From: Gemmatimonadota bacterium | GTDB lineage: Bacteria > Gemmatimonadota > Gemmatimonadetes > Gemmatimonadales > GWC2-71-9 | Direction of reading: 5' to 3' | Assembly: GCA_003221035.1 (NCBI GenBank) | Contig: QHUB01000026.1 | Span: forward strand, 1-64,000 | Length of the DNA: 64,000 nt | Part shown: positions 3,925 to 57,536 of the stretch, piece after piece | How positions within the stretch are numbered: position 1 is the stretch's first letter | Layout of the letters: each line of letters opens with the position of its first letter | Translations under genes and position numbers: made by a program | The notes under the pieces: model-generated | The model's input: the letters and a program-made list of their open reading frames with translations, nothing else | Database searches by the model: none | Told to the model about the DNA's origin: nothing

Positions 3925-4833
3925 GCGCGCTCCCCCGCGCCAGCCCACCGGTCGAGGAGACGCTCGGCAATGACGGCGGCCGAGTCGGTCGCGTTGATCG
4001 TCCACACCTGCGACTCGCGGAGCTGATTGCGAAACCACGTGTCCTGCCGCTTCGCGTATTGCCGCGTCGCCGCGAGGATCGCGTCGCGCAACAGCGGCTC
4101 CGGCAGGCTGCCTTGCAGCATCGCTACGACCTCCCGGTATCCGATTCCGTCGAGTCCTGGGGCATCGGACGGGATCCCCCGATCGAGCGCCCGTCGTACT
4201 TCGTCAACCAGCCCGCTCGCCAGCATCTGATCCACTCGCATGGCGAGACGACGATGCAGCACGTCTCGCGGCATGGTGAGGTGAATGTACCACGGGCGGA
4301 GCACGCCGCTCGCGCGCGCCTCGCGCTGCCACCACGACAGCGCGCGGCCCGTCAGCAGTGCAACCTCGACGGCGCGCGCAGCGCGCTGACGGCCTCCACC
4401 GGGAAAGCTGGAATCGAGCCGCCCCGCCCAGCGCACCAGCTCCCCCGCTTCCATTTCGCTGCACCACTCGCGCAATCCTTCGCGCCGGTCGGGGTCCAGG
4501 ACCGGCTCGTTGAACAGCCCCTCGGCGAGCGCGCGAATGTAGAGGCCGGTGCCGCCTACGACCACCGGAATCCGCCCTTCGGCGCGACTCTGCGCGACCC
4601 ACCCCGCGGCATCCCGCGCGAATCGCCCCGCACTGTAGCGCTCACCCGGCTCGAGCAGATCCAACCCGCGATGAGGGACCCGAGCCAGCACCTCGGGGCC
4701 CGGTTTGGCGGTGCCGATGTCGAGCCCCCGATAGAGTTGGCGAGCGTCGGCGGAAATGACGGTGATGCGCTTGAGACCCGCGAGCGCGACGGCAACGGCG
4801 GTCTTGCCGACGCCGGTGGAGCCTACGATGACT

Positions 4834-4851
4834 GGTGTCAGGTGTCGGGTG

Positions 4852-4854
<3 letters not shown>
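4834..4854. repeat. Tandem heptamer GGTGTCA at the mutL/miaA junction
   Basis: Three exact-length units GGTGTCA, GGTGTCG, GGTGTCA. The last unit contains the mutL stop codon (TGA on the minus strand, 4852-4854). The array also encodes the residues just before the miaA P-loop region, where a start codon would be expected. Confidence 0.75.
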
Positions 4855-6557
<1,703 letters not shown>

Positions 6558-25413: not shown

Positions 25414-25527
25414 GGGCGGCGAGGTGAGGCGGCGGCGCGGGGCGGCGAAGTAAGACGGCGGCGATGGGGCGGCGAGGTGATTCGGCGGCGAAGGGGCGGC
25501 GAGGTAAGACGGCGGCGATGGGGCGCC
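25414..25527. repeat. GGCGGCGA array, copy 1
   Basis: GC-rich tandem array. It contains nearly three units of 27 nt, each an 11-nt GGGGCGGCGAA-like block plus a 16-nt GTAAGACGGCGGCGAT-like block, and ends at 25511-25527 with GGCGGCGATGGGGCGCC. That terminus is the inverted form of the left end of copy 2. Confidence 0.75.
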
Positions 25528-25590
25528 AAAAGGCTCACCGCGAAACGATAATTGATAACGCGTTGACCAGCGAACCCATTATTCAAACAC

Positions 25591-25941
25591 ATGGGACCGC
25601 ACAAGCGATTTCTCGCATGGCAGGAATGCAATAAGCTGGTCCTCGCTGTCTACAAGACCACCGCCTCGTTCCCGAAACACGAACTCTATGGTTTGACTTC
25701 TCAGGCGTGACGCGCAGCATTCTCTGCGGCTGCGAACATTGCTGAAGGCGCGTCACGGAAGGGGCGCAATGAACTGCGGCGCTTCCTAGACATCTCCCTC
25801 GGCTCACTAGCTGAACTCGAATATGCGCTCGAGGTCGGCCTCGCACTCGAGTATGTGAAGCCTGAGGATTATCACGCGCTAGAGGCACTCCAAAAGCGAG
25901 CGCGTTTCTTCACGTGGAAGCTGCAAAAGTCGATGCGCTAG
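25591..25941 (+). pseudogene. Four-helix-bundle (23S rRNA intervening-sequence type) protein, broken by one stop
   Basis: The frame from the ATG at 25591 to the TAG at 25939 translates to 117 codons with one internal TGA at 25708-25710 (codon 40). The product reads MGPHKRFLAWQECNKLVLAV, then KHELYGLTSQA, stop, RAAFSAAANIAEGASRKGRN, then ELRRFLDISLGSLAELEYAL. This matches the four-helix bundle family (TIGR02436-like: LTSQ-x-RRA...NIAEG) over its whole length. An Arg is normal at the stop position, so one C-to-T change (CGA to TGA) would explain it. The region looks less GC-rich than its neighbours and is enclosed by opposed repeat arrays, which suggests transfer. Distant relatives include the Avd accessory proteins of diversity-generating retroelements. 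Confidence 0.82.
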
Positions 25942-25950
25942 CCGCGCTTT

Positions 25951-26056
25951 GGGCGCCCCTTCGCCGCCGTTGTAGTCGCCGCCCCTCGCCGCCGATTCAA
26001 TCGCCGCCCCTCGCCGCCGCTTCATTCGCCGCCGATTCACCTCGCCGCCGCTTCTA
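25951..26056. repeat. GGCGGCGA array, copy 2 (opposite orientation)
   Basis: TCGCCGCC blocks alternate with short spacers (CTTCATT, GATTCAA, CCCC). The left end, 25952-25968, reads GGCGCCCCTTCGCCGCC, the inverse of the right end of copy 1. The right end contains the stop codon of citrate synthase. Confidence 0.75.
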
Positions 26057-27207: not shown

Positions 27208-27257
27208 TCGGCGCCCCTTCGCCGCCCCTTCATCACGCCGCCGCTTCACCTCGCCGC
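27208..27257. repeat. GGCGGCGA array, copy 3
   Basis: Begins with the shared terminal motif GGCGCCCCTTCGCCGCC (27210-27226) and continues with CGCCGCC blocks. It covers the gap between citrate synthase and the M20 peptidase, including the peptidase stop codon (27246-27248), so the last peptidase residues (GPAAR) are encoded by the array. Confidence 0.7.
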
Positions 27258-28688: not shown

Positions 28689-28710
28689 CGCCCTTCGCCG
28701 CCCGTCGCGG
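28689..28710. repeat. Single GGCGGCGA-type unit, copy 4
   Basis: One CGCCCTTCGCCGCCC unit fills the gap between the M20 peptidase start and the stop codon of the TPR gene. It is related to the longer arrays but too short to be independent evidence. Confidence 0.45.
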
Positions 28711-30277: not shown

Positions 30278-30364
30278 CGGACAGGGAGGGATTCGAACCC
30301 TCGAAGCCCTTGCGGGCTTACCGGTTTTCGAGACCGGCGGTTTCAACCGCTCACCCACCTGTCC
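30278..30364 (-). tRNA. tRNA-Ser (anticodon CGA)
   Basis: 87 nt on the minus strand. The 7-bp acceptor stem is perfect (GGACAGG with CCTGTCC) and the discriminator is G. The anticodon stem CCGGT/ACCGG encloses loop CTCGAAA, giving anticodon CGA (codon UCG). A long variable arm (AGCCCGCAAGGGCT) and a TTCGAAT T-loop confirm the class II Ser type. CCA is not encoded. Confidence 0.92.
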
Positions 30365-30479: not shown

Positions 30480-30566
30480 CGGACAGGGTGGGATTCGAAC
30501 CCACGTAACGGTTGCCCGTTAACACGCTTTCCAAGCGTGCGCCTTCAGCCACTCGGCCACCCGTCC
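30480..30566 (-). tRNA. tRNA-Ser (anticodon GGA)
   Basis: 87 nt on the minus strand. Acceptor GGACGGG pairs with CCTGTCC with one G-U; discriminator G. The anticodon stem CACGC/GCGTG encloses loop TTGGAAA, giving anticodon GGA (codons UCU/UCC). A long variable arm and the TTCGAAT T-loop are present. It lies 115 nt upstream of the CGA tRNA and probably shares its transcript. Confidence 0.93.
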
Positions 30567-35983: not shown

Positions 35984-38229
35984 AGATCGTCTGCGTCGGG
36001 GGCGGGCCCGCGGCCCTCTATTTCAGCATCCTGATGAAGAAGGCGCATCCCCGCCACGAGATCACCATTCTCGAGCGCAACCGGCTCGAGGATACGTTCG
36101 GCTTCGGCGTCGTCTTCTCCGACGCGACGCAGAACAACCTCGCCGCGGCCGATCCCGAGACGTACGACGCGATGGCCAGCCACTTCGCGCACTGGGACGA
36201 CATCGACATCCATTACCGCGGGCTCGTGATCACCTCCAGAGGACACGGGTTCAGCGGGCTCTCGCGCCAGGCGCTGCTCAAGGTGCTCGGAGTCAGGAGC
36301 CGGGCGCTGGGGGTCTGCCTCGAGGTCGGCACGGAGGTGATCGATCCCGGGGCCTACGCCGACGCCGATCTCGTCGTCGCCGCCGATGGCTTCAACAGCA
36401 TCGTCCGCGCGACCTATGCCGATCACTTCCAGCCGAGCATGGATGAGCGCCCGAACCGATTCGTGTGGCTCGGCACGACGCGCCCCTTCCCCGCCTTCAC
36501 GTTCTACTTCAAGCGCGACAAGCATGGCCTGTGGCGCGTGCACGCCTATCAGTACGAGCACGGACACTCGACCTTCATCGTCGAGACGACGGAGCCGGCG
36601 TGGCGCAAAGCGGGTCTCGACCAGGCGAGCGAAAACGAAACCGTCGCGTTCTGTGAGGCTCTGTTCAAGGAAGAGCTGCAGGGACATCGGCTGCTCAAGA
36701 ACCGCTCGGTGTGGCGCAACTTCGTCACGATCAAGAATGCATCGTGGTCGCACGGCAATGTCGTCCTCGTGGGCGACGCGGCGCACACCGCGCACTTCTC
36801 GGTGGGTTCGGGGACCAAGCTGGCGATCGAGGATGCGATCGCCCTGGCCGGAGCGCTCCAGCGCCAGCCGGACGTCCGCACGGCCCTGACCGAGTATGAG
36901 GCCGAGCGGCGGCCGGCGGTGGAGAGCCTGCAGCGGGCCGCACAAGTGAGCCTGCAGTGGTTCGAGGAGACGGAACGGTATATGAGCCTCGAGCCGCCGC
37001 AGTTCGCGTTCAATCTGCTGACGCGGAGCCTGCGGATCACTCACGATAACCTCAAGATGCGCGACCCTGGATTCGTGGAACGGGTGGATCAGTGGTACGA
37101 CCAGCAGGCCGAGAAGCAGTCAAACGTACGACGCACGACGCACGACGCACGTCCACCCATGTTCACTCCGTTTAGGCTGAGAGACTTGGTCCTGAGCAAC
37201 CGGGTGGTGGTGAGCCCGATGTGCCAGTACGTCGCCGAGGATGGCATGCCAAATGAATGGCACTTGGTGCACCTCGGCAGCCGGGCGATTGGGGGCGCCG
37301 GTCTCGTCTTCTCCGAGATGACCGACGTATCGCGCGAAGGGCGGATTTCGCCGGGTTGCACCGGCATGTACAAGCCCGAGCATGTCGCCGCATGGAAGCG
37401 GATCGTCGACTTCGTGCACGTGAACAGCAGCGCGAAGATCGCCATGCAGTTGGGTCATGCCGGACGTAAGGCATCGACACAGCGCATGTGGGAAGGCATG
37501 GACGAGCCGTTGCCCGATGGGAACTGGCCCATCATCTCGGCTTCGGCGCTTCCCTACTTTCCTTATAGTCAGGTGCCAAAGGAGATGACGCGCGCGGACA
37601 TGGATGAGGTGAAAACCGACTTTCTTCGCGCCGCTGAAATGTCGAACGAAGCGGGGTTTGACCTGCTCGAGCTGCACATGGCGCACGGCTATCTGCTGGC
37701 AAGTTTTATTTCTCCGCTCACCAACCAGCGCACCGATGAGTACGGCGGCTCGCTCGAGAATCGCATGAGGTTTCCGCTGGACGTGTTCGACGCCGTGCGC
37801 GCGGGGTGGCCCGCGCACAAGCCGATGTCGGTGCGCATCTCGGCGGTGGACTGGGCGCCCCGCGGCATGCAGCCCGCGGATTCCGTGGCTGTCGCGCGCA
37901 TGCTCAAGGAGCACGGCTGCGACATCACCGACGTCTCGGCCGGCCAGACGGTCGCGGACGCCAAACCGCAGTATGGCCGGCAATTTCAGACGCCGTTTGC
38001 GGACCGAATTCGTCACGAGGTGGGGATCGCCACCATGGCGGTCGGGAACATCTCGTCGTATCAGGACGTGAATACGATTCTCGCGGCGGGGCGCGCCGAT
38101 CTGTGCGTGCTCGCGCGCGCGCACCTGTGGGATCCGTATTGGACTCGGCATGCGGCTTATGAGCAGGGATATCAGCTTCCCTGGCCGGATCCGTACGCGA
38201 CACTTAACCGATATCGCCCCCGCACCTAA
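35980..38229 (+). CDS. 2-aminobenzoyl-CoA monooxygenase/reductase (two-domain flavoprotein)
   Basis: 749 residues, two fused enzymes. Residues 1-~385 are a class A flavin monooxygenase: [20 protein letters not shown] at the N-terminus and [20 protein letters not shown] as the GD motif. From ~390 on is an old-yellow-enzyme reductase: [52 protein letters not shown], then [15 protein letters not shown]. This is the architecture of Azoarcus evansii 2-aminobenzoyl-CoA monooxygenase/reductase, which hydroxylates and reduces the ring. Salicylyl-CoA 5-hydroxylase is the alternative name in databases; the kynurenine context favours anthranilate. A heptamer array forms the interdomain linker. GTG start, GTGA overlap. 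Confidence 0.88.
37124..37151. repeat. Tandem heptamer ACGCACG in the interdomain linker
   Basis: Four units: ACGTACG, ACGCACG, ACGCACG, ACGCACG, in frame, encoding part of the Arg/Thr/His-rich linker ([10 protein letters not shown]) that joins the monooxygenase and reductase domains. An ATG and a clean reductase N-terminus follow within 10 nt, as if two genes had been joined here. Confidence 0.75.
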
Positions 38230-39095: not shown

Positions 39096-39101
39096 TGCCT
39101 T

Positions 39102-39149
39102 TCGGCGCCCCTTCGCCGCCCTCTCGCCGCCCCTTCGCCGCCCTATTGC
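39102..39149. repeat. GGCGGCGA array, copy 5 (11-nt period)
   Basis: Units TTCGGCGCCCC, TTCGCCGCCCT, CTCGCCGCCCC, TTCGCCGCCCT fill the gap between kynA and kynU. The left end, 39104-39120, is the shared terminal motif GGCGCCCCTTCGCCGCC. The array starts 6 nt after the kynA stop. Confidence 0.75.
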
Positions 39150-39150
39150 C

Positions 39151-40269
39151 GTGATCAACCCGGAGGAGCTGGCCAAGCATTACACCCGCTTCCGGGTAAC
39201 CGAACGAATCCTGCTCACGGGTCATTCCCATCAAGCCTGGCCCGACGTCGCTTTCGAGGCGCAGCAGCAGGCGTGGCTCGATACCGCCGAGCATGTCGAT
39301 GACGTGTGGGACCTCGCGTTCCAAAAGGCCAACGAGGTGCGGCGCGGTTTTGCGCGGCTGCTGGACGACACGCCGGAGCGCATTGCGCTGGCCGAGAACA
39401 CGCACGAGCTAGTGGTGCGGTTCTTATCGGGTTTGAATCTGCGCAAGCGCCCGCAGCTCGTAACAACGGATGGCGAATTCCACACGATCCGCCGCCAGCT
39501 CGATCGCCTGGCCGAGGAAGGGATCGAGGTTATCAAAGTCCCGGCGATGCCGGCGACGACGCTGGCCGAACGGTTGGCGATCACGGTGGATGAGCGGACG
39601 GCGGCCGTGCTCGTGTCGGCGGTGCTCTACGCCAACGCGCACATCGTGCCGAATCTCAGAGCAGTCCAGGAAGCCTGTGAGCGGGTCGGCGCCGAGCTGC
39701 TGGTGGACGCGTATCACGCGCTGAACGTCGTGCCGTTCGGCCTCGTCGATGCGGGCTTGCAGCGCGCATTCGTGGTCGGCGGAGGTTACAAGTACTGCCA
39801 GCTTGGACCAGGCAATGCGTTCCTGCGATTTCCTCAGGACACCGATCTGCGGCCCGTCGTAACGGGGTGGTTCAGCGAATTCACCGATCTCAGTCGCGCG
39901 CCGGCGGGTGGACGCGTCACGTATGGCCCAGGGGCCGCGCGGTTTGCGGGCGCCACCTACGACTTTACGAGCCACTATCGCGCCGCCCGCGTGTTCAAGT
40001 TCTTCGAGGAGCAGAAGCTCACTCCGGCGAAACTGCGCGAGCTGAATCAGCATCAGATCGAAATTCTGTCCGGAAGTACGCGGAATGACGCGATTGGCGG
40101 CTTCCTGGCAATTCCTGTGACACGCACCGGAAAGATTCAGCAGGTGTTGCGGAAAAAGAATGTGTGGACTGATTACCGTGGCGACACGCTGCGATTGGGA
40201 CCCGCGCCGTACGTGTCGGACGCGCAGCTTCAAGAGGCTGCAAAAAAAGTGAACGATGTGATCCGCTGA
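39151..40269 (+). CDS. kynU: Kynureninase
   Basis: PLP enzyme cleaving kynurenine to anthranilate and alanine. It is 372 residues, fold type I. GHSHQAWPDVAFEAQQQAWL is near the N-terminus, with LVTTDGEFHTIRRQLDRLAE after it. LLVDAYHALNVVPFGL carries the cofactor Asp, the PLP Lys is in VVGGGYKYCQLGPGNAFLRF, and a late VWTDYRGDTLRLGPAPYVSD closes the fold. GTG start at 39151 directly after the repeat array, with no clear ribosome-binding site. The product anthranilate is the expected substrate of the divergent CoA ligase. Confidence 0.94.
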   Translation: MINPEELAKHYTRFRVTERILLTGHSHQAWPDVAFEAQQQAWLDTAEHVDDVWDLAFQKANEVRRGFARLLDDTPERIALAENTHELVVRFLSGLNLRKRPQLVTTDGEFHTIRRQLDRLAEEGIEVIKVPAMPATTLAERLAITVDERTAAVLVSAVLYANAHIVPNLRAVQEACERVGAELLVDAYHALNVVPFGLVDAGLQRAFVVGGGYKYCQLGPGNAFLRFPQDTDLRPVVTGWFSEFTDLSRAPAGGRVTYGPGAARFAGATYDFTSHYRAARVFKFFEEQKLTPAKLRELNQHQIEILSGSTRNDAIGGFLAIPVTRTGKIQQVLRKKNVWTDYRGDTLRLGPAPYVSDAQLQEAAKKVNDVIR

Positions 40270-42175: not shown

Positions 42176-42598
42176 CTAGAGCTTCAGCAGGGCGATTAGG
42201 GTCCCGACCGTCCCCACCCAGAAGAGAAACATCCAGCGCACTATGCGCGTCTCGAATGCGCTGAGCTTCGATTCCAGCTCGGCACGTAACCCGACCACCT
42301 TGCCCGTCAGGTCGCCGCGCAGCTCGCCTAGTTCGGTATGCAGCTCGGCGCGCAGCTCGCCTAGCTCTGTACGCAGCTCGGCGCGCAGCTCGCCTAGGCC
42401 CGTATGCAGCTCGGCGCGCAGCTCGGCGATACGCTGCTCGAGCTTCGCGTCGAAGCGCGCGAAGTTTACGTCAAACAGGTCGCGGAACTCGCTGCGGTAT
42501 GTGGTATCCACCTGGTTGAACCACTCCACGAGCTCGTTCGTGAGGTCGTCCCCGAACCGTTCGTAGAATTTTCTGGACAGTCTCGCCGTCACCGGCAT
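42176..42598 (-). CDS. DUF1640-like coiled-coil protein with C-terminal membrane helix
   Basis: 140 residues. An N-terminal helical region (ARLSRKFYERFGDDLTNELV) precedes a long coiled coil built from 11-residue repeats (ELRAELHTGLG, ELRAELRTELG, ELRAELHTELG). The last ~22 residues form a membrane helix (WMFLFWVGTVGTLIALLKL). This resembles the DUF1640/CCDC90 group. The repeat is exact at DNA level as 33-nt units (about 42313-42420). Function unknown; probably a membrane-anchored coiled-coil oligomer. No operon partner: 57 nt from tadA. Confidence 0.75.
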   Translation of the reverse strand: MPVTARLSRKFYERFGDDLTNELVEWFNQVDTTYRSEFRDLFDVNFARFDAKLEQRIAELRAELHTGLGELRAELRTELGELRAELHTELGELRGDLTGKVVGLRAELESKLSAFETRIVRWMFLFWVGTVGTLIALLKL

Positions 42599-45751: not shown

Positions 45752-45800
45752 GTGCCCTCTCCAAGCAACCTGCGTGCCCCGAGAAGATGCCAAAAAGACA

Positions 45801-45880
45801 TGGCGGCGAAAGAGACGGCGGCGAAGGGTTTACGCCGCCCCCTCGCCGCCGTTGTTATCGCCGCCGCTTTTCTTCGCCGC
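45801..45880. repeat. GGCGGCGA array, copy 6, self-inverted and terminator-like
   Basis: Blocks face each other: CGGCGGCGAAGGG (45816-45828) pairs with CCCTCGCCGCCG (45840-45851), 12 bp with one bulge and an 11-nt loop. Further TCGCCGCC blocks continue to 45880. It starts 3 nt beyond the stop of the sorting-domain gene and is followed on the minus strand by clpB 50 nt on. It could act as a bidirectional terminator or a transcript-end stabiliser. Confidence 0.6.
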
Positions 45881-45882
45881 CC

Positions 45883-46320
45883 TTACTTCATAATGATCAT
45901 CTTCTTCGTGAACCTGCGCCCATCCACCACCAGCTGGTAGATGTACACGCCGGACGACGCCTCTTTATCGGTGTCCAGGACGTTGCCGTTCCAATAGGCA
46001 CTGAACGCGCACGGCTCCGATGCCGACGGCGTGCATGTGAGCTCGAGATCCTGCAACTTCTCGCCCGTACCCTGGAGGATAGGTACGGCCACGAGCTGCG
46101 CGAGCACGTTGTAGATCTTCAGCGAAACCCTTGGCCGGTGACCATTTGCAAACAGATCGCCGCTCAGCGTGAACGGGATCGTGGTCGCCGGGTTAAACGG
46201 GTTCGGGTAGTTCTGCCTCAGCTCCACCAGCGGCGGCGCGGGCGATTGCCCCAGAACTCCGCCTCCTCCCGCTAGCAGCCCGAGCCCCGCGAACAGCACT
46301 GCCCAGGCGTACAGCTTCAT
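45883..46320 (-). CDS. Signal peptide plus lone type IX secretion-like C-terminal domain
   Basis: 145 residues: a signal peptide (KLYAWAVLFAGLGLLAGGGG), then immediately the T9SS/FlgD-like sorting-domain motif VELRQNYPNPFNPATTIPFT, LKIYNVLAQLVAVPILQGTG, and the terminal SSGVYIYQLVVDGRRFTKKM. A two-cysteine insert (TCTPSASEPC) sits in the middle. Normally this domain is the last ~90 residues of a large secreted protein; here nothing else is present. The ATG at 46318-46320 has a GAGGAG ribosome-binding site. A promoter is visible upstream. Confidence 0.82.
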   Translation of the reverse strand: MKLYAWAVLFAGLGLLAGGGGVLGQSPAPPLVELRQNYPNPFNPATTIPFTLSGDLFANGHRPRVSLKIYNVLAQLVAVPILQGTGEKLQDLELTCTPSASEPCAFSAYWNGNVLDTDKEASSGVYIYQLVVDGRRFTKKMIIMK

Positions 46321-49078: not shown

Positions 49079-49131
49079 ACGGCGGCGAAAAAGACGGCGG
49101 CGAGGTGAAACGGCGGCGAAGGGACGGCGGC
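49079..49131. repeat. GGCGGCGA array, copy 7
   Basis: Four ACGGCGGCGA-type blocks with 14-16-nt spacing (GGCGGCGAAAAAGAC, GGCGGCGAGGTGAAAC, GGCGGCGAAGGGAC, GGCGGCAG). It lies between recO and the stop codon of the corrinoid-binding gene (49135-49137). Confidence 0.7.
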
Positions 49132-55618: not shown

Positions 55619-56433
55619 CGCGTGAGCATCCGCCGCAGTTCGGCAATCGCCTGGCCCGACCGGGGACCGGGACGGCCAAACAACGAGCCCGCGAGCAGGA
55701 GGAAGCGCCCATCGCGAACGGCGGCGACCGCGCGCCATTCGCGGCGCCGAGCAAAATCCGGCGTTTTGCCGGAGTCGGACAGGACCGCAATCCAATGCGG
55801 ATCGCGCGCCACGATCGTCTCGAGCGAGACCTGCGCGGACGGCGCGGCGATGTCATGGAACACGTTTCGCGCCCCCGCCTGACTCGCGAGCTGATCGAGA
55901 TAACTGCCGCGGCCGATGACGATGGGCGGATCGTCCCACACAACGAAAGCGATGGAGGCGGTAGGAGGCGGTAGGGGGCGGGAGGCGATGCTGTCCATTC
56001 GTGCGGCGAGTGAGTCCCCCTGGGCTTCGTGCCCGGTCAACCTGCCCAACGCATGCGCCGCGGGCCCGAGGTCTTCGAGCCGGTTCAGATCGATCAGCTC
56101 CGCGCGAACACCGACGCGCTCGAACTGGTGCGCGGCGCTGACGTTGGGGCCTGAGTTGTAGAGCAAAACGAGATCGGGCTTCCGCGCGAGCACCGCTTCG
56201 ACATTGGGCGGCAACCCTTCACCCACGCTCGGCACCTGCAGCGCTTCCGGCGGGTAGTCGCACCATTGCGTCCTGCCGACGGTCTGATCACCGGCGCCTA
56301 TTGCAAAAAGGATTTCGGTGAACGACGGAAGCAGCGAGACGACCCGCTGCGCCGGCGCAGCATCGTGCCGACGTGCCGGCGTGTGGCAGGAAGAAACGAG
56401 GAGTACGGCGACGAAGAGTCTTCGCAGCACCAT
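55615..56433 (-). CDS. btuF: Cobalamin ABC transporter substrate-binding lipoprotein
   Basis: 272 residues. Signal peptide with lipobox-type LLVSSC (MVLRRLFVAVLLVSSCHTPA), then the BtuF opening QRVVSLLPSFTEILFAIGAG, GRTQWCDYPPEALQVPSVGE and RKPDLVLLYNS. A loop around residue 150 (SRPLPPPTAS) is coded by decamer repeats. It is the first gene after the riboswitch. The ATG at 56431-56433 is preceded directly by GGGAGGG, which lies in a hairpin (see riboswitch). Confidence 0.93.
   Translation of the reverse strand: MVLRRLFVAVLLVSSCHTPARRHDAAPAQRVVSLLPSFTEILFAIGAGDQTVGRTQWCDYPPEALQVPSVGEGLPPNVEAVLARKPDLVLLYNSGPNVSAAHQFERVGVRAELIDLNRLEDLGPAAHALGRLTGHEAQGDSLAARMDSIASRPLPPPTASIAFVVWDDPPIVIGRGSYLDQLASQAGARNVFHDIAAPSAQVSLETIVARDPHWIAVLSDSGKTPDFARRREWRAVAAVRDGRFLLLAGSLFGRPGPRSGQAIAELRRMLTR
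55951..55990. repeat. Tandem decamer GTAGGAGGCG inside btuF
   Basis: Four 10-nt units: GATGGAGGCG, GTAGGAGGCG, GTAGGGGGCG, GGAGGCGATG. In frame, encoding the Pro-rich loop SRPLPPPT of the binding protein. Confidence 0.6.
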
Positions 56434-56630
56434 CCCTCCCGCGAGGGAACCAACGGTGGCGCGAACGAAGACGTCTCCTGGCTCCGGGCGAAGCGCGGGG
56501 TCTTCCCGGGAATTGTCCCAGTGACCGGACCGCGATTGTAGGGGCGCAGCAGCCCCTACCGCAAAACATGCCCGTTACAGTGGCGGGGCCGCGCCGGACT
56601 CACACCGGCTTCCGTATCCCCGTTCGCAAT
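56433..56630 (-). promoter_or_regulatory. Cobalamin riboswitch with ribosome-binding-site hairpin
   Basis: Minus strand upstream of btuF. The core reads AAGCCGGTGTGAGTCCGGC (about 56612-56594), then GCGGCCCCGCCACTGTAACG (56593-56574), the conserved AdoCbl aptamer sequence. The B12 box AGCCAGGAGACG is at 56483-56472. Between them a GTAGGGGC palindrome (56538-56559) replaces a variable stem. The expression platform is TCCCTC-GCGG-GAGGGA (56448-56433), which folds the GGGAGGG ribosome-binding site into a hairpin up to the start codon, pointing to translational control. It should repress the btu operon when cobalamin is plentiful. Confidence 0.9.
56538..56559. repeat. GTAGGGGC palindrome, copy 1 (in the riboswitch)
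   Basis: Perfect 8-bp inverted repeat GTAGGGGC/GCCCCTAC with loop GCAGCA. It shares AGGGGCGCAGCAG with copy 2 near 57590. Confidence 0.7.
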
Positions 56631-56633
56631 GAG

Positions 56634-57536
56634 CTACGCGCTCAGTCTAGGCGGAGCCACGCGGCGGCGCAATGCCCAGATCAGCGCCAACACCATCGCC
56701 GCCGCGAGCACGCCAATCACGTACGGGAGCAACATCTGTGCGCGGAATTTTCCAGCGGGCAGCTCGATCTCGACAACGGCGCCGGCCGCGAGTGGACCGC
56801 TGCGCCACGCCGCGAAGCGCCGTCCTTCGATCTCCTGGATGCCCAGGCTGTCGAGCGTCGGCGCGTGCACCGGCGCCAGCGTGTCTTCCACGAGGAGGTT
56901 CACCTCGGCCGTGGCCTGGTCGATCGGAATCACGAACCGGCGCGTGCCGGCGGCCACCGTATACGCGTAGCTCACTTGCTTGGCAGGTCCGGGACCGATC
57001 GGCGCGAGCACGAGCACGCTGTCATTGCGGAATCGCATCGCTTCCGCCGAGATGTCGCCCTGGCCGCCGCGGAACTGACTCGTGCGCTCGGGCACGCGGC
57101 CCGCCCAGGTCGGCTGAATGGAATCCCGGGCGACCCGCGTCGTTGCGCCACGATTCTCGAGCTCGAGGATCTCCAGGACCTCGCGCGTACCCTGGTCCGT
57201 CGCCCGTGCGATCGTGGCCAATCGCCGCGTGATGGCGATCGGCGGACCGTCGGTCGTCGTGCGATAGGTCACGATGTCGTCGACATGCGCGATCGGGCGA
57301 TCGCCGGCTACGAATGCGGACGAGACGTAGGCGATGCTGTCGAACCAGACGGTGACGACGTAGGCGCCCGTCGTATCGGGATGGCGCAGCTCGATGCGAT
57401 AGCGCCCGCGCGCGTCGCTGCGGACCGAATCGATCGGCCCCGCGCTCTCGCGCGACACATGATGCAGCACGACCATCGCCTTGGAGAGCGGGACGGTATC
57501 ACCCCCACCGCGCAGCACGCGGCCGCTCACGCTCAC
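56634..57536 (-). CDS. Exported protein with carboxypeptidase-regulatory-like domain and C-terminal membrane helix; start disturbed
   Basis: 300 residues from the GTG at 57534-57536, function unknown. The N-terminal domain is Ig/CarboxypepD-like (SVSGRVLRGGGDTVPLSKAM, SVRSDARGRYRIELRHPDTT), the centre is beta-rich, and the C-terminus is a membrane helix (MLLPYVIGVLAAAMVLALIW) followed by RRR. In-frame codons directly upstream encode a good signal-peptide end (AIISISFAPAALSAQAVSVS), but no standard start codon precedes it; a palindromic repeat occupies that place. The gene may use CTG, or its start may have been lost. It lies downstream of DUF151 and just upstream of the riboswitch. Confidence 0.72.
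   Translation of the reverse strand: MSVSGRVLRGGGDTVPLSKAMVVLHHVSRESAGPIDSVRSDARGRYRIELRHPDTTGAYVVTVWFDSIAYVSSAFVAGDRPIAHVDDIVTYRTTTDGPPIAITRRLATIARATDQGTREVLEILELENRGATTRVARDSIQPTWAGRVPERTSQFRGGQGDISAEAMRFRNDSVLVLAPIGPGPAKQVSYAYTVAAGTRRFVIPIDQATAEVNLLVEDTLAPVHAPTLDSLGIQEIEGRRFAAWRSGPLAAGAVVEIELPAGKFRAQMLLPYVIGVLAAAMVLALIWALRRRVAPPRLSA

Follow-up and report, generated by a model that had tools for sequence, protein, structure and literature searches.

Mirrored arrays of very short repeats around S23 four-helix-bundle genes: a probable class of mobile hairpin elements in Gemmatimonadota and many other phyla

Introduction

Intervening sequences (IVS) of 23S rRNA genes that carry an S23 open reading frame (ORF) are among the described systems closest to the elements reported here. 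The Coxiella IVS has GACAGAT heptamers ahead of its ORF (PMC4990558), and mobility of IVS, or an origin as remnants of transposition, was proposed earlier (cited in PMC4990558). The GGGAATC heptamer of Xanthomonas is dispersed, with 70-75 convergent pairs per genome, and was interpreted as a G-quadruplex element, with no origin assigned and no mention of S23 (PMC4692102). Avd scaffolds an RNA-reverse transcriptase complex in diversity-generating retroelements (DGRs; PDB titles). Here, we analyze a 64,000-nucleotide stretch of a Gemmatimonadota bacterium (contig QHUB01000026.1, positions 1 to 64,000; hereafter the window), in which GC-rich tandem arrays at gene ends prove to be parts of elements built around an S23 gene.

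These elements are of a kind hitherto unrecognized, consisting of mirrored arrays of very short repeats around an S23 gene, and they occur in many phyla. We propose, with a probability of roughly three in four, that the arrays are mobile hairpin elements whose full form is an inward-pointing G-rich array, an S23 gene and the same array inverted, copied through a folded single strand with S23 serving the process. The open-access literature holds papers on IVS, heptamers and DGRs, none of which links S23 genes with heptamer arrays; subscription-only papers and preprints lay outside this scope, and priority is therefore uncertain.

Results

A full S23 element in the window

The two longest arrays, listed as separate places in a sequence-only reading of the window, are in truth the inverted arms of one element. 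That reading overlooked the gene between them, as well as the generality of S23 genes among such arrays. By profile match the product of this gene belongs to PF05635 (23S_rRNA_IVP, or 'S23'; in TIGR02436, 'four helix bundle protein'), and in structure comparison its fold equals 2gsc and resembles Avd (4dwl, 8ube). No gene other than S23 lies between the arms, and the element sits between two protein genes, not in an rRNA gene. Features are given below by window position; G000 denotes the window's own genome and G001-G009 its congeners, while L and C numbers denote loci and contigs.

25414-25527, plus strand: left arm of the full element, a G-rich array with 11-, 16- and 27-nt periods of GGCGGCGA; inverted match to 25951-26056
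25591-25941, plus strand: S23/IVP four-helix-bundle gene (PF05635; 99.6 bits, E 3.2e-28) with one in-frame TGA
25951-26056, minus strand: inverted right arm of the same element; outer end gives the citrate synthase stop (GGCGAATAG); empty here in G008 and G006
27208-27257, minus strand: solo array at the M20 peptidase/citrate synthase junction, which is occupied by full S23 elements in G003 and G008 and by nothing in G005 and G007
39102-39149, minus strand: solo array between two overlapping genes, from congener comparison of the junction
45801-45880, no strand assigned: hairpin lacking a gene, with a G-rich and an inverted C-rich arm around a short loop, from sequence and RNA fold
49079-49131, plus strand: solo array between two genes, from sequence matches
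28689-28710, minus strand: single TTCGCCGCCC unit, a doubtful member
4827-4855, plus strand: solo array of GGTGTCN heptamers; L031 (G000:C85) is the full element of this family
37124-37151, minus strand: array of CGTGCGT heptamers, a family with its full element at L038 (G000:C34)

The last two entries exemplify further repeat families of like architecture in G000. Six of the seven places named in the sequence-only reading are real arrays; 28689-28710, with its one unit, is weak, and 45801-45880 is better described as an inverted pair, that is, a hairpin. Of the four copies of the shared 17-nt motif named in that reading, those at 25952-25968, 27210-27226 and 39104-39120 are exact, and the one at 25511-25527 is inverted and differs at one position. 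Because 25414-25527 and 25951-26056 are arms of one element, this motif is the inner end; the "defined end" exists, but it is where each arm faces the gene. The variable internal copy number was correctly seen, and so was the association with stop codons: at the junctions examined, an array provides the stop of citrate synthase as well as that of the M20 peptidase (GGCGAGGTGA).

CGCCCCTTCGCCGCC, with up to 2 mismatches allowed, has 13 matches in the window versus 1.6 expected, a number reached by 0 of 100 dinucleotide shuffles, and TTCGCCGCC has 16 versus 2.9 expected. A 20-mer from a GGCGGCGA array has 33 matches in the whole of G000, and its reversed control has none; one copy is entered twice among the 33, since contigs C85 (1-100) and C100 (260-310) are identical in sequence at an array, probably through an assembly overlap. 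The counts are far beyond chance, both in the window and genome-wide. A high-GC genome and the location of some sites in coding sequence might suggest chance low-complexity sequence, but these counts, together with the A/T-containing units of like architecture in cyanobacteria (below), refute such a reading, to which we give practically no weight.

S23 genes lie between inverted arrays in the genome, the order and other phyla

G000 contains 11 PF05635 genes over the cut-off, and all 11 lie between tandem repeats that are inverted left versus right. The unit differs from locus to locus (GGTGTCT, GGGGCCTA, GGGACGGTAA, CGTGCGT, GGGATGT, AATGCGA and others), and most units also have copies without the gene at other places in G000, either compact inverted pairs or single arrays. 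Three families were counted over the whole genome (33, 23 and 128 copies, with reversed controls near zero) and others in sampled stretches of G000, where reversed-pattern controls were again near zero for most families. In those stretches the L033 unit did not exceed its reversed control and the L036 unit had no copies.

Across the order, PF05635 is present in 27 of 31 genomes, with at most 17 copies per genome. Most of the genomes compared are draft assemblies from uncultured organisms. When the left flank of each gene was aligned with the reverse complement of its right flank, 91 of 97 loci scored at least 14 and 88 at least 17, whereas random places of equal spacing reached 17 in 0.9% of cases; in the direct-orientation control, 1 of 97 loci passed the 99% line. 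A Xanthomonas S23 fragment used as query yielded 80 loci from many phyla, of which 78 were scorable, and 59 of these lay beyond the 95% line of mismatched pairs, with periods mostly of 7, 14 or 21. Fifteen plasmid loci, cyanobacterial with few exceptions, were examined as well, and every one exceeded its own shuffles (L387 barely). Cyanobacterial S23 genes are flanked by arrays that include A/T-containing units such as TAGGGAG, GGGAACA and AAGTCAG, among others. Another of the plasmid loci, L137 of Azospirillum, is a classical 23S rRNA IVS with similar arms, inside large-subunit rRNA (Rfam), and is the only locus found there. The Xanthomonas S23 gene (L138-L141, orthologues of XCC0516, whose structure is solved as 2gsc) has GGGAATC on both sides; this unit has 327 overlapping three-unit matches in X. 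arboricola versus 0 reversed. Carriage by phages was considered and rejected, since a tblastn search of 50,697 phage records gave no match.

Four cyanobacterial elements were seen within conserved plasmid operons, in Anabaena sp. 90 (L132), Pseudanabaena galeata (L136), Picosynechococcus PCC 7003 (L387) and Nostoc edaphicum (L131); the sites are cas6-cas4 (twice), cas10-cmr3 and nrdB-nrdA. Six S23 loci of G021 (L084, L087, L093, L100, L109 and L056) have long inverted flanks that are far less tandem and perhaps represent an older form or a different subtype. In 200-kb samples, period-7 arrays were found in G000 and G002 only, and in none of the genomes lacking S23. Two candidate relationships were rejected: tight co-evolution of protein and repeat, which was weak in pairwise comparison, and a tie between array density and S23 copy number, for which there was no simple fit, G021 and G025 bearing S23 yet yielding no period-7 arrays in these samples.

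Polarity, periodicity and folding of the arms

On the strand pointing inward, G exceeds C in 131 of 140 arms. Of the 77 arms that are periodic, 55 have a period of 7 or 14; the GGCGGCGA family of the window has its own periods of 11, 16 and 27 nt. Polarity is absolute among gene-less pairs within 150 bp in two families, with 38 of 38 convergent, none divergent and none on the same strand. In the GGTGTC family, 17 array edges are preceded by ATA to give ATAGGTGTC, often with TAG serving as the stop of the neighboring gene (e.g. L073, L268, L282, L289). A native GGATAGG at the empty atpG site, taken with these ATA-preceded edges, hints at a target preference.

The arrays were also considered as all-frame stop cassettes, a period of 7 being coprime to 3. 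All three frames are closed in 31 of 140 inward arms versus 8.6% of shuffles, and in 21 of 140 outward ones; this is a modest excess only, several units contain no stop, and the idea was rejected. Two GGCGGCGA arrays, L005 (G000:C93, ~42485) and L006 (G000:C4, ~23069), are apparently translated in frame as part of genes; one is close to the C terminus of a DnaK-like protein and the other falls in a membrane-fusion-like protein. At L264 (G000:C65, 4540-4861), a pair of inverted AATGCGA arrays encloses the initial ~260 nt of a hemW-like gene, whose reading frame apparently runs through the right-hand array.

The paired forms fold strongly: the atpG-atpD hairpin has a predicted energy of -50.3 kcal/mol (z -7.7), and window positions 45795-45885 give -46.5 kcal/mol on the plus strand and -52.5 kcal/mol on the minus strand (z -4.2 and -4.8). 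Single arrays fold no better than shuffles (39098-39155, z -1.0).

Filled and empty junctions within the genus

At orthologous junctions the congeners differ in what they carry. Between citrate synthase and the dehydrogenase there is a full element in G000 and G003, a solo array in G005, nothing in G007, and a stop-start overlap in G008 and G006. The M20 peptidase/citrate synthase junction holds a solo array in G000 and a full S23 element in G003 and G008, and is empty in G005 and G007. Between atpG and atpD, G000, G001, G002 and G003 have the hairpin, G009 a reduced form, and G005, G006 and G007 an empty site. The array at 39102-39149 has one orientation in G000 and G001 and the opposite one in G003 and G008, and therefore at least two insertions took place at this junction; the sites in G004, G005, G006, G007 and G009 are cleanly empty, with stop and start overlapping. 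At the filled site of G000 the GTGAT of the gene overlap is doubled (4-5 bp). Each of these differences may be either a gain or a loss.

The suggestion that these are mobilized elements is thus supported by junctions at which congeners show a full element, a hairpin, a solo array or a clean empty site. Of the two outcomes named beforehand as contrary to it, neither was seen: empty sites are present, and the arrays are far more frequent than in shuffled or reversed controls.

The great stability of the hairpins and their location at gene ends would also fit conserved cis-acting RNA structures (terminators, attenuators or RNase III sites) that do not move, and in Coxiella RNase III acts on the stems of the IVS (PMC4990558). 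We consider this very unlikely, given the empty sites of congeners, the opposite orientations, the positions inside operons and within the rsmA coding sequence, and the failure of single arrays to fold better than shuffles. A regulatory role acquired later is possible. No T run of the kind that marks an intrinsic terminator follows the atpG-atpD hairpin, which is internal to an operon.

The rsmA coding region has no array in G000, G005 and G007. Its arms are of GGTGTC or GGTATC in G002, G003 and G009, of CGTACGC/CGTGCGC in G008 and of GCGGTGC in G004, always inverted around the same host segment. Because these arms differ between species and are alike within each, the repeat unit can change on both sides while the place remains constant.

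Copies may also cluster. For the GGCGGCGA family, 3 of about 20 non-S23 sites (counted by eye from the genome-wide 20-mer matches) lie no more than ~20 kb from the S23 element of that family (p about 0.003 in a binomial test on a 50-kb interval), and several copies of the AATGCGA family lie within 3 kb of its S23 gene. In this small sample, the clustering hints at short-range movement.

Other features of the window

A 33-nt tandem repeat of 3.6 copies at 42308-42425 is probably coding and bears no relation to the arrays, whereas GGAGGCGGTA, repeated 3.2 times at 55954-55985, is possibly another array family (period 10). The window also contains a cobalamin riboswitch at 56453-56652 (minus strand) and two tRNA-Ser genes 115 bp apart, at 30278-30364 and 30480-30566 (minus strand).

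Discussion

The comparisons above directly show the architecture of these elements, their fixed polarity and the dispersal of unit families. They also show that copies have been gained or lost at orthologous junctions, that one junction received insertions more than once and in opposite orientations, and that the two arms change their unit jointly. How the elements move, and that S23 drives the movement, is what we infer from them. In the mechanism we propose, the element would be copied through a folded single strand, in which either arm could template the other; both arms would then stay alike while copy number and unit change together. Such folding would account for the concerted change of the arms and for the variable copy number. 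Entry would occur between overlapping or closely spaced genes, where a few added residues would be harmless, and since an array can bring a stop codon, insertion should be best tolerated where genes abut or overlap. The S23 pentamer would bind the array strand and serve copying, with host enzymes carrying out synthesis and joining. By analogy with REPINs (REP doublets forming hairpins) and miniature inverted-repeat transposable elements (MITEs), which depend on their transposases, gene-less hairpins and single arrays may be non-autonomous or decayed forms. 23S rRNA intervening sequences with S23 ORFs would be members that landed in an rRNA gene.

The REPIN-like anatomy, the presence of Y1_Tnp in 9 of the 10 genomes of the genus, and the service that Avd, a structural relative of S23, gives to a reverse transcriptase could instead indicate that a Y1 transposase or a reverse transcriptase mobilizes the hairpins in trans, with S23 as an accessory. 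Reverse transcriptase (PF00078) is found in just 1 of the 31 genomes, however, and not in G000; Y1_Tnp is missing from G007 and from a number of other genomes in the order that do carry S23, G021 and G025 among them, and no Y1 gene lies within or beside the S23 loci examined. We therefore consider this explanation very unlikely. By these data neither enzyme is an obligate partner, since the one is absent from 30 of 31 genomes and the other is patchy. It is for this reason, together with the Avd-like fold and the lack of any other gene between the arms, that we propose S23 as the array-binding protein.

Several observations weigh against mobile hairpin elements served by S23. Movement is deduced from comparing sequences, with no event observed. 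The window's own S23 copy is broken by a nonsense codon, an in-frame TGA at 25708-25710 where, in protein comparison, the relative L035 has Arg. S23 is not known to have enzymatic activity, and it may be a passenger. There is no consistent target-site duplication; beyond the doubled GTGAT, none is evident at the other junctions compared, e.g. atpG-atpD. Among unrelated loci whose S23 proteins are 60-80% identical, only 13% of pairs have similar arms, and protein and repeat unit are thus loosely coupled. No period-7 arrays were found in the 200-kb samples of G021 and G025, with eight and three S23 genes, respectively. Finally, the arms in rsmA, and probably those in the hemW-like gene, flank host sequence and not the interior of an element. 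Simple cassette insertion fails to explain the rsmA arms, and the copying proposed here does not fully explain them either.

Arms that flank host segments, exchange of units there, weak coupling of unit to protein and the lack of a recognized recombinase or, in 30 of 31 genomes, a reverse transcriptase would be expected if the host drove the repeats. Slippage would then lengthen the arrays, template switching or gene conversion between short repeats would disperse them, and S23 would be caught between them or would gain from the flanking stem without driving the process. We judge this unlikely, though it deserves more weight than any other alternative: it leaves unexplained why PF05635 genes of many phyla lie between arrays (88 of 97 order loci versus 0.9% of random places), why polarity is absolute, and how whole S23 elements came to lie in operons such as cas6-cas4 and nrdB-nrdA.

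Mobile hairpin elements served by S23 may account for the dispersed 7-letter repeats that microbiologists have found puzzling since about 1990. They give the orphan S23 family, whose structures are solved but whose function is lacking, a context, and they connect rRNA intervening sequences to a genome-wide class of elements, and offer one origin for heptamers that had been reported independently of each other from cyanobacteria, Xanthomonas, Beggiatoaceae and Geobacter. Movement without a recognizable recombinase and joint change of both ends become testable. In practice, many "four helix bundle protein" genes and unexplained intergenic or in-frame repeats would count as mobile DNA. More tentatively, and as a possibility for which we would not claim even odds, S23/IVP proteins may drive a separate class of mobile DNA in bacteria (and probably in archaea) that employs no known recombinase, copies mirrored arrays via folded single strands, renews both arms together, and is the source of 23S IVS and of the heptamers of many phyla, including GGGAATC, TAACTGA, GGGACCG and the short tandemly repeated repetitive (STRR) sequences.

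Comparison with known systems

The arrays consist of head-to-tail units without spacers, whereas CRISPR arrays carry unique ones. Their ends are themselves tandem arrays, not the single-copy terminal inverted repeats with constant target-site duplication of DDE insertion sequences or MITEs. Avd of DGRs shares the four-helix fold (4dwl, 8ube) but works with a reverse transcriptase, and PF00078 is absent here from 30 of 31 genomes, unlike in a DGR. Foldback elements of Drosophila have long inverted ends of tandem repeats; they are eukaryotic, carry other genes and have no known relation to those described here.

Among dispersed repeats, the STRR heptamers of heterocystous cyanobacteria, such as GGGGA(C/T)T of Nostoc (PMC4692102), are likewise G-rich heptamer arrays, and GGTGTCN, AATGCGN and GGGAATC are dispersed tandem G-rich heptamers in the same sense. 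STRRs differ in that the literature found gives them no S23 link, and the exact GGGGACT unit was not seen beside the S23 genes examined. For the Xanthomonas GGGAATC the likeness is closer, the identical unit flanking the S23 gene of L138-L141. TAACTGA of Beggiatoaceae (PMC4679880) and GGGACCG of Geobacter metallireducens (PMC2700814) are also dispersed tandem heptamers, both intergenic and intragenic, a likeness drawn from the descriptions of the repeats.

Repetitive extragenic palindromic (REP) sequences and REPINs with their REP-associated tyrosine transposase (RAYT, TnpA-REP) share dispersed hairpins of fixed polarity, a flanked cognate gene and insertion between genes; here, however, tandem short units replace the single palindrome, S23 stands in the place of a Y1 HUH transposase, and the unit of both arms changes together. 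The 23S rRNA IVS of Leptospira and Coxiella share both the protein family and inverted repeats on either side, while the elements described here reside in protein-coding neighborhoods, reach up to 17 copies per genome, and are accompanied by dispersed hairpins and solo arrays.
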